DNA of 58,281 nt from Planctomycetota bacterium. GTDB lineage: Bacteria > Planctomycetota > Planctomycetia > Gemmatales > Gemmataceae. The translations under genes and the position numbers were made by a program. The stretch lies in NCBI GenBank assembly GCA_003669555.1, contig QWOS01000043.1:1-58281 (forward strand), in the 5' to 3' direction. Below, piece after piece: positions 28,318 through 58,281 of the stretch. Numbering within the stretch: position 1 is the stretch's first letter; every line of letters begins with the position of its first letter. The notes under the pieces were generated by a model. It saw nothing but the letters and a program-made list of their open reading frames with translations, was not told the origin of the DNA and searched no databases.

Positions 28318-28724
28318 ACCGTCGTCCCCTGAAAGGCTGCCCGAAGAGTGGGTCTTCCCTGCTGTCGCCGGTGCCGCTCAGCGCGGAATTCGTCGAGCAG
28401 GAAGTGGCGGTAGGCCAGGTCGTTGGCACCGCGGGCATCCCAAAAAGTGAGCACCGTTGAGGTAACGGGGGAAAGATTGGCAACCCTGTCGAGCCAGACG
28501 ATTCCGGAATCTTGGGCGAGATGGGCTGTTTTTGGGTGGTGCCAGGCTATCTGGGTCGCCAGGCAGCCCTGAGGGGGCATTTTGCTGAAGTAACCACTGA
28601 CCAGCAAAGGACTTGCTGACTCGAGGAGGTGGACAAGATGGGCCACAGCTCCATCCGTGGACCCTGGGAACCAGCGCTGATGCAGTTCGTCCAACACAGA
28701 TTGTGGGGGGTCCAGAATCAACAT
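28311..28724 (-). CDS. Protein of unknown function, first gene of the MlaE/methyltransferase cluster
   Basis: 137-residue protein I do not recognise. Seen: a predicted alpha/beta pattern (MLILDPPQSVLDELHQRWFPGS, LLVSGYFSKMPPQGCLATQIAWHH) and an Arg-rich region near the C-terminus (RAERHRRQQGRP). No signal peptide or membrane helix. The ATG at 28724 has GGAGAA about 8 bases upstream; the frame is open 51 codons further but without a site. Its last 7 bases overlap the methyltransferase start, so it probably works with that enzyme or is only coupled to it. Confidence 0.68.
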   Translation of the reverse strand: MLILDPPQSVLDELHQRWFPGSTDGAVAHLVHLLESASPLLVSGYFSKMPPQGCLATQIAWHHPKTAHLAQDSGIVWLDRVANLSPVTSTVLTFWDARGANDLAYRHFLLDEFRAERHRRQQGRPTLRAAFQGTTVC

Positions 28725-56153: not shown

Positions 56154-57893
56154 TTATTTGAGCGGCTCGGGGGTGGGCATGCCATCGGCACGCTCGATGT
56201 ACAGCCGCAACAATTTTTCCGCTGTATCTTTGGTGATCTGGCGCACGCTGGCGTCAAACATGACCATTGCGGCAGTTTTTCGTTCCCCCACACCCAGCGC
56301 TGGTAGTGCCTTCTTGCCATCGTAGTCGAAGGCATCGGGGGCTGCCCAGGGCGTGGCCTCTTTGGCCTCCACCACAGCCAGGGTGTTCGACATGCCGTCG
56401 GTGATGGCTGCAAACCCGAACAGGCCTTTTGGGTCAGGCTTGCGGGGATTCCAGCCCGGGGGGCTGGCTGTCCAGCCAGCCTTGTCCCCAACAAAAACGC
56501 GGTAGTGGGTTTTGTTCGACGGATTTTCCGGATCAGCGTACACCTTCACCACCATCGCACTGAGCGCCTTGTTTTCGGGGCTGTCCCACGGCTTGTCCAT
56601 GTTCCACTTCTTGTAAAGAGCCTCTTCTCCGATATAAGGCAGCAACAGCACACGCCATGAATACAACGGCTTGCCGGCCTTATCCAGCACTGCTGCTGGC
56701 GGCAGGAAGGAATGAGTGCCTTCAAAGTGATGGATACCCAGGCCGATCTGTCTCAGGTTGTTCATGCTGCGGGTGCGGCTGGCTAACTCGCGGGGACTGT
56801 CTGGTTTCAATTCTTCAGACATTTCCTCCATTTGTGGTTCCGGCGCCGTGGGAACAGCAGAACCGGCGCGCTGCGAGGGCGGCTGGAGGCTCAACTGGCC
56901 CTGGGCGGCATAGCCATATAAACCCAAGGACAGCAGCGGCCCGAACGGGCTCGCCTGCATGGTATCGATGGTCAGGGTGGCTGTTACCAGCTGGCCCGTT
57001 CGCCTGATTGGGAGCTTTTCAAGCTCCTGACCCAACAGATTCATTCCGCCAAGCCCTAAAACTGCAAAAGCATGCTCCAGCATCTGCTTGTCTGGGAGAG
57101 CCATGTCTTTGCGCAGTTCGGCTTTGCCCTGGTTCAATACTTTCAGACCCAGGTCCTTGGCAGCCCGGGTGGCCCCGATGGCGGCCACTGCTTCCTTTTC
57201 GCTTGCATAGGCCATCTCCAGTTCGCAAGTGATCGACTTGGCATCCACAGCGAGATTCAAATGAAGCGTTGTGGCCTGGACCAAGGGAGTGAACGGTTCA
57301 GGCACCGCACCCACCAGACCATCCGACAAAGGGTTTTTCTCCAGCCGTATTGCCACCTGGCCCTCGAGCAATTTGCCCGGCTTGACCGGGCGTTTTTTTC
57401 GGCTCAGTGCCTGGATCACGGCCTCCCTGCTTCCCAGTAGCAATGCACCATCCAGGGCCGGGGCCACCACGAAAAGGGGCTGCTTTTCATGACTCCAGAT
57501 CACGCCGGCGCCTTCGCGCTCCATTCGGGCGCCATGGCCAAGGAACATCTGGGCCGCCTTATCCAGGTCCACCGTTCCTGTACTGGATATAGCCAGTAAA
57601 AACCGGGGCATGCCATCATGGCCCTGCCACACCGCCCCACTGATTTCCTCAAATTCTTCCAGACGCGGGCTCATCTGCAACTGCAAAAGAGCCTGGGCGG
57701 CCCCGCCCCGCAAAATGGCCTCGCGCATATCGGCGAAGAGGGGGCCGCGCCACAAAGCTTTGAAATCGAACCGCGCGGTGGCAACCGCGTCTTCAGGCAG
57801 CCAGCCCAGGGTGCCATCGCCTGCCTGAACAGGGGAGGCAAATCCAGCCAAAACCAGGCAGCAGCAGCCGGTCAAAAACAAAAGGGGGCGCAT
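56154..57893 (-). CDS. DUF1559-type protein with long N-terminal domain (relative)
   Basis: 579 residues and the same design as the adjacent gene: signal peptide (MRPLLFLTGCCCLVLAGFASPVQA), a unique N-terminal domain (about 25-375), then the DUF1559 core with NNLRQIGLGIHHFEGTHSFLPP, YSWRVLLLPYIGEEALYKKW, and DGMSNTLAVVEAKEATPWAAP. No pilin leader helix is present. The start ATG at 57893 has GGGGAAAG about 7 bases upstream; 25 open codons before it are ignored. The two genes form a tandem pair about 66 bases apart, and the tandem structured repeats lie upstream of this one. Confidence 0.85.
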   Translation of the reverse strand: MRPLLFLTGCCCLVLAGFASPVQAGDGTLGWLPEDAVATARFDFKALWRGPLFADMREAILRGGAAQALLQLQMSPRLEEFEEISGAVWQGHDGMPRFLLAISSTGTVDLDKAAQMFLGHGARMEREGAGVIWSHEKQPLFVVAPALDGALLLGSREAVIQALSRKKRPVKPGKLLEGQVAIRLEKNPLSDGLVGAVPEPFTPLVQATTLHLNLAVDAKSITCELEMAYASEKEAVAAIGATRAAKDLGLKVLNQGKAELRKDMALPDKQMLEHAFAVLGLGGMNLLGQELEKLPIRRTGQLVTATLTIDTMQASPFGPLLSLGLYGYAAQGQLSLQPPSQRAGSAVPTAPEPQMEEMSEELKPDSPRELASRTRSMNNLRQIGLGIHHFEGTHSFLPPAAVLDKAGKPLYSWRVLLLPYIGEEALYKKWNMDKPWDSPENKALSAMVVKVYADPENPSNKTHYRVFVGDKAGWTASPPGWNPRKPDPKGLFGFAAITDGMSNTLAVVEAKEATPWAAPDAFDYDGKKALPALGVGERKTAAMVMFDASVRQITKDTAEKLLRLYIERADGMPTPEPLK

Positions 57894-58013
57894 GGTGTCT
57901 TTCCCCGTGTAAGGGCAGGGTTCACGACTTGATAATCTGGAAGGTAACAGAAATCCCTGGCAGTGCAAAAAGGGCTGCTGCTCAGGGAAAAAGGAGGGTG
58001 AGGCAGCAAAAAG

Positions 58014-58122
58014 AAAACCGGGCTGATGGCGGCAGTGAGTCGTCCCCGTTCACTGTTTCAAACATGCGTGTGTCGTCCCCACACACGCACAACTGTTCCA
58101 TCAGCCCGATTGGTCGGGCATT
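58014..58122 (-). repeat. 109-bp structured repeat, copy 1
   Basis: First of two identical 109-base units. Plus-strand pairing: outer stem GGGCTGATGG (58020-58029) with CCATCAGCCC (58098-58107); inner hairpin CAGTGAGT/GTTCACTG (58033-58040, 58048-58055) and inner hairpin TGCGTGTGT/ACACACGCA (58065-58073, 58081-58089), both with loop CGTCCCC; a third hairpin GCCCGA-TTGG-TCGGGC (58104-58119) shares bases with the outer stem, so the two exclude each other. Read on the minus strand the outer stem is followed by GGTTTTCTTTTT, like a terminator, and the loops read GGGGACG. It lies 121 bases upstream of a DUF1559 gene. Confidence 0.9.
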
Positions 58123-58172
58123 AAAGGTGTTCAAAAAAAGAAGACTAACCAGAAATTTGGGTCAAGGAAGTA

Positions 58173-58281
58173 AAAACCGGGCTGATGGCGGCAGTGAGTC
58201 GTCCCCGTTCACTGTTTCAAACATGCGTGTGTCGTCCCCACACACGCACAACTGTTCCATCAGCCCGATTGGTCGGGCATT
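58173..58281 (-). repeat. 109-bp structured repeat, copy 2, may continue beyond the window
   Basis: Identical at every base to the unit starting at 58014, with the same stems and loops. The start-to-start distance is 159 bases; the 50-base spacer is AT-rich and unrelated. On the minus strand its outer stem is followed by GGTTTTTAC. The unit ends exactly at the window edge, so whether more copies follow is unknown. Confidence 0.9.

Follow-up and report, generated by a model that had tools for sequence, protein, structure and literature searches.

A twin-loop structured element in two genera of Gemmataceae is probably a regulatory RNA holding a single partner at two points

The window analysed here, the entire 58,281-base contig C107 of genome G000, ends in two 109-bp units (58014-58122 and 58173-58281), which raise the question of what is being repeated at this locus and what it might do. 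Comparison of the two units gave 100% identity and a start-to-start distance of 159, just as a sequence-only reading of this DNA had described them (identical over 109 bases, 159 apart). That reading had also proposed extending the sequence to the right to count the copies. The array is cut there by the end of the contig at 58281, eight bases beyond the model match of the second copy, but about 1.5 further copies lie at one end of a second contig of this genome (C95, 18796-19004): one full copy, 90% identical, and a partial copy of 60 bases, 98% identical, in matching orientation. The window species has at least four distinct copies, and at least eight loops. C95 leads into a PPIase gene and C107 into a DUF1559 gene, which is the arrangement seen in relatives; very probably, therefore, the assembler split a single array and the two contig ends are its flanks. 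The spacers between tandem copies resemble each other by eye and contain no good -10 box; the likeness of the window and C95 spacers points to a repeated unit of about 150-160 bp. Only the window species shows this tandem, multi-copy state, the relatives having single copies.

On the minus strand, each unit folds as a three-way junction in which a closing stem carries two hairpins that share one loop sequence, and a T-run follows (Table 1). The predicted fold energy per unit is −50.8 kcal/mol, as against a shuffled mean of −38.5 ± 3.6 (z −3.45). The two inner hairpins with unlike stems are as the sequence-only reading had drawn them, but the closing stem comprises 14 pairs rather than the 10 that it had counted. 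The minus-strand T-runs that it had placed after each unit are real, with TTTTCTTTTT and TTTTTACTT lying behind the closing stem. In hairpin 2 of copy A, A.C and C.A pairs adjoin the loop.

Table 1. Coordinates of the twin-loop RNA copies, their structural parts and neighbouring features in the window
Feature	Coordinates	Strand	Basis and remarks
Copy A, twin-loop RNA	58010..58114 (core 58016-58111)	-	Covariance model R3, cmsearch 105.8 bits, E 1.9e-20 in the window
Copy A, closing stem P1, 5′ arm (14 nt)	58098..58111	-	Folds; covariation helix 1, 96% of cells paired
Copy A, closing stem P1, 3′ arm	58016..58029	-	Folds, covariation; runs into T-run (about 58017-58005, minus strand)
Copy A, hairpin H1, 15-nt arms, loop GGGGACG 58074-58080	58059..58095	-	Folds; covariation helix 2, both partners changed in 10 of 15 pairs
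Copy A, hairpin H2, 8-nt arms, loop GGGGACG 58041-58047	58033..58055	-	Folds; covariation helix 3, both partners changed in 5 of 6 pairs
Copy B, twin-loop RNA	58169..58273 (core 58175-58270)	-	Covariance model R3, cmsearch 105.4 bits, E 2.3e-20; 100% identical to copy A over 109 nt
Copy B, hairpin H1, loop 58233-58239	58218..58254	-	Copy A shifted by 159
Copy B, hairpin H2, loop 58200-58206	58192..58214	-	Copy A shifted by 159
Spacer between copies A and B	58123..58172		Minus strand; by eye resembles the C95 spacer (TTGACCC...GTTA.TCTT...TTTGAA)
Neighbouring DUF1559-domain gene (SBP_bac_10)	56154..57968	-	Pfam PF07596, E 3.9e-25

A DNA search recovered single copies in two congeners, a covariance model built from these reached a second genus, and the rebuilt model added two further species of that genus. 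The carriers comprise six species in two genera of Gemmataceae (G000, G001 and G003 in genus g1; G025, G094 and G095 in genus g23). The covariance search of relatives that the sequence-only reading had recommended did find conservation elsewhere, in the form of single homologues in five other species. No further carrier genus was found among 95 family, 398 class and 392 phylum genomes under strict filters, which very distant copies could escape, and a family search with a broader model gave only two weak additional matches (E 0.18 and 0.28). Other PPIase-downstream regions contained no GGGACGA and no convincing covariance-model match.

For all carrier copies, the unconstrained MFE structure of the RNA strand is the same three-way fold, with closing-stem arms of 14 nt and 12 to 14 standard pairs. 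Covariation was assessed on an alignment of eight distinct rows, which was fitted to the model and hence leans towards the structure. In this alignment, 92.8% of cells are standard pairs, compared with 31-44% when the columns are slid by one to three, and both partners have changed in 22 of the 35 pairs; 500 shuffles never reached these covariation values. The count of further pair types in the same eight rows was not above the 500 shuffles. Arms built by hand agree with the model alignment: 239 of 265 pair positions are standard, with 28 G-U and 10 A-C pairs, eight of the latter falling at the two loop-adjacent pairs of hairpin 2. Since the 28 G-U pairs of the minus strand would be C-A mismatches on the plus strand, the RNA is the minus strand, and the G003 copy folds with −75.1 kcal/mol on the minus strand versus −56.3 kcal/mol on the plus strand. 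The folds, the G-U bias and these strand energies bear out the earlier proposal of a minus-strand structured RNA, and the covariation that had been suggested as its check in relatives is present. As would be looked for in any bacterial structured small RNA, a covarying structure is conserved in other species, and independent folds agree on it.

Identical tandem copies might also be produced by a mobile or REP-like palindromic repeat that has no RNA function, and one relative, G023, does contain dispersed palindromes with a GGGGACGAC core. By contrast, the present element occupies one syntenic place per genome rather than being dispersed, and it was not found in viral contigs (searched with two exact patterns) or in plasmid and phage searches. 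Moreover, the G-U asymmetry and the compensatory changes point to RNA, which leaves a functionless repeat scarcely credible.

In both window copies, both loops read GGGGACG on the minus strand (CGTCCCC on the plus strand). All copies read over their full length show the eight-base core GGGACGAC unchanged in each of their two hairpins; the base before it is G, or U in hairpin 1 of four copies. The stems below the loop have been replaced between genera, being GCGTGTGT/ACACACGC in one and ATCGCG/CGCGAT in the other. Selection on the loop, which had been proposed because differing stems carry it, is upheld by a core that stays constant across carriers while the stems diverge. Identity inside the RNA was 99% between G094 and G095, versus 81% upstream and 79% downstream; 86% between G001 and G003, versus 42% and 50%; and 83% between G025 and G094, versus 46% and 43%. 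Shuffled sequences give a baseline of about 47%, the level of the upstream flanks in the latter two comparisons. These identities also show selection on the RNA relative to its flanks. The loop complement GTCGTCCC occurs once in the window outside the elements, at 28321. If the loops act by base pairing, GUCGUCCC would be the site in 5′ UTRs or other RNAs.

Rfam scans of the window, the homologues and short stretches gave no accepted match. The twin-loop RNA is an RNA family new to Rfam, and the earlier remark that it belongs to no recognised class holds on these scans. Literature searches turned up no such RNA class, and to our knowledge very little is known about small RNAs in these bacteria. 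No tRNA was found. A plus-strand match to Yfr1 reached 17.9 bits against a cutoff of 38 and was set aside as below threshold and on the wrong strand. The idea that UCCCC loops of a plus-strand RNA pair with Shine-Dalgarno sequences was also discarded, as the G-U bias points to the minus strand.

In every carrier, the RNA lies 140-230 nt downstream of a cyclophilin-type PPIase gene (Pfam PF00160), on the same strand. This linkage was read from ORFs, with the G003 gene end read by eye and G095 taken from the homologous region. On the other side of the RNA is a DUF1559 gene, and the sequence-only reading had suggested that each unit might be its leader or attenuator. Its position upstream of that gene on the same strand in the carriers, with the gene following directly on the window contig, fits such a role. 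However, a strong predicted canonical terminator with a 16-bp hairpin and seven T begins within a few bases of the RNA in G025, another, with a 14-bp hairpin, follows about 25 bases behind it in G001, and in G094 and G095 a convergent hemP gene (PF10636) stands between the RNA and DUF1559. The DUF1559 gene also has its own palindrome just upstream, and the conserved neighbour is the PPIase gene. The terminators and the opposed hemP favour a self-contained RNA over a DUF1559 leader. We regard a leader or attenuator as highly improbable, and the DUF1559 gene of the window is probably not controlled by the RNA.

A sigma70 search revealed no promoter consistently shared among the carriers; the RNA might therefore be merely the 3′ end of the PPIase transcript. 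The element could be nothing more than an elaborate intrinsic terminator or 3′-end stabiliser, its loops having no partner in trans. Such a function agrees with its location behind the PPIase stop codon and with the G+C-rich closing stem and T-run found in four species. It accords less well with the poor T-run of G094 and G095 and with the extra canonical terminators behind the RNA in G025 and G001, and termination leaves both the invariant loop on two hairpins and the tandem amplification unexplained. We assign this possibility a small but appreciable probability.

The loop core offers a further comparison. GGGACGAC is also the core of guanidine-II (RF01068, mini-ykkC), which resembles the twin-loop RNA in having two adjacent hairpins with unlike stems and similar spacing. 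In guanidine-II, an ACGR tetraloop is closed by a G-C pair on a G+C-rich helix in both hairpins, and the crystallized hairpins are GCGGGGACGACCCCGC and GGUGGGGACGACCCCACC (PMC5486947). A single loop-pair pattern, searched in the family and order, retrieved the twin-loop RNA together with the true guanidine-II copies of relatives, the remaining matches being mostly coding-repeat-like. Canonical guanidine-II riboswitches are present in four family relatives (L178:1496-1546, L179:1497-1544, L180:1497-1544 and L188:1497-1545), and that of L178 precedes a small multidrug resistance (SMR) exporter gene. In hairpin 2 of the twin-loop RNA, a GGG-ACGA-CYY stem is possible in all species by eye.

Nevertheless, the Rfam model RF01068, which scores the four relatives' copies, as positive controls, at 36.9-47.9 bits, gave no match at E<=10 in L021-L024, L026, L060, L061 or the window element; in L022 it reached 9.4 bits over 10 bases only, against a cutoff of 32. 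The penalty for forming the G-C pair that closes the ACGA tetraloop is 5.6-10.6 kcal/mol for hairpin 1 and 2.2-7.2 kcal/mol for hairpin 2, and in hairpin 1 of all species the C of this pair is instead paired with an upstream G. With no tetraloop stem in hairpin 1, a cost for forcing it and no Rfam match, the twin-loop RNA is not a guanidine-II riboswitch. It also differs in that a 14-bp stem encloses a three-way junction and no G+C stem closes ACGA in hairpin 1. Nor does the RNA precede a gene: what follows its end is a terminator (seen in two species) and not a start codon, and its neighbours are PPIase, DUF1559 and hemP, with no guanidine exporter or carboxylase gene nearby. A guanidine-II-like RNA, derived or converged, whose ACGA loops would kiss via C-G dinucleotides, with guanidinium or a related ligand bound, is accordingly quite unlikely. 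We consider it very unlikely that a stand-alone RNA has come from, or converged on, the guanidine-II core such that its GGGACGAC loops dock mutually or between tandem copies around a small ligand. If it had, a cis-riboswitch module would have been turned into an amplified free RNA. The occurrence of genuine guanidine-II and of the same core in a different fold within one bacterial family makes motif convergence or exaptation testable.

The GGA in the loops had also prompted a guess at CsrA-type binding. A CsrA/Rsm-type sponge would bind both faces of a CsrA dimer through its two GGA loops and thereby titrate it. GGA is found in the loop of both hairpins with an unpaired probability of 0.98-1.00 (one G of G001 has 0.53), the six carrier species have two or three csrA genes each, and a terminator with tandem copies is as expected of a titrator. 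The CsrB/RsmZ sponges are likewise short RNAs with GGA in hairpin loops and a terminator, in hosts that encode CsrA. However, the A(N)GGA core is reported to be not replaceable for CsrA (PMC4005645), and the two bases before GGA are here always G or U, then G, with A never present. Conservation moreover extends past GGA to CGAC, giving the longer core GGGACGAC, there are two GGA loops only per RNA, and the four non-carriers checked have csrA just as the carriers do. The guess keeps an exposed GGA and a csrA gene in every carrier, and is weakened by the missing A in every loop; we deem a CsrA sponge unlikely.

These observations leave a regulatory RNA as the best explanation, and the twin-loop RNA is probably a real one that grips one partner at two points. 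Two identical loops on rigid arms, with at least four repeats in one species, are most simply read as a two-point binder acting in trans, whose copy number would raise the dose by analogy with multicopy sRNAs and RNA sponges. For the specific proposal that each unit is a lineage-specific minus-strand sRNA gene, encoding a two-site titrator or sponge of one partner in trans, we consider the chances evenly balanced; here we infer transcription, action in trans and two-site binding of a single partner. An RNA of about 100 nt would arise behind the PPIase gene, through transcription from a promoter of its own or as a processed PPIase transcript, and would end at an intrinsic terminator, either its own G+C-rich closing stem and T-run or a separate hairpin just behind. 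The three-way junction would show the single-stranded GGGACGAC core on two hairpins, and one partner recognising it, a protein dimer or a complementary RNA, would be held at two points. In the window species, amplification to at least four copies and eight loops would multiply both sites and dose. As the duplicated eight-base core is sharply defined, the partner can be fished for directly.

Related arrangements are known. The alphaproteobacterial alphaR8 sRNAs SisA-D and their sponge CrfA (PMC12559287) include sRNAs tied to the same upstream protein gene across species, with additional copies in some species and a conserved recognition stretch, and CrfA uses a G/A-rich stem loop (PMC12559287). 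They have no shown sequence relation to the twin-loop RNA and, unlike it, have a C-rich, single-stranded core and a known partner (PMC12559287). In Listeria, LhrC1-5 are near-identical copies of an sRNA, four of which share one locus, with repeated recognition motifs; these are CU-rich and pair with AG-rich 5′ UTR sites (PMC13350326), whereas the loops of the twin-loop RNA are G-rich.

Several other features were noted around the locus and in relatives. On C95, the interval from the PPIase gene to the first array copy contains a long imperfect inverted repeat (L005:4700-4800), AATAATGTAGCC ... GGCTATTACATTATTTTTT, which could be a separate terminator. The REP-like palindromes of G023 contain CCGGGGACGACAGTCCCCGG and share the GGGGACGAC core (L175; contigs C54, C123, C147, C150, C163 and C189). 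In the relatives L064, L067, L069, L072 and L081, the PPIase gene is followed by SRP RNA (L064:1093-1311, L067:4872-4968), with dnaX behind it in two relatives (read by eye); this linkage is broken in the twin-loop carriers. The element was rejected as an SRP RNA or a substitute for it: in five of the six carrier species an SRP RNA was found at another locus (none was found in G003), and the element has no RF00169 or RF01854 match. Finally, a palindrome, TGAGACTNAGTCTCA, lies just upstream of DUF1559 in G025 (L027:6311-6325), G094 (L142:4546-4560) and G095 (L143:7217-7231), and in the latter two sits between the divergent hemP and DUF1559 genes. Its likeness to a Fur-type box suggests iron control of the DUF1559 pseudopilin-like gene.
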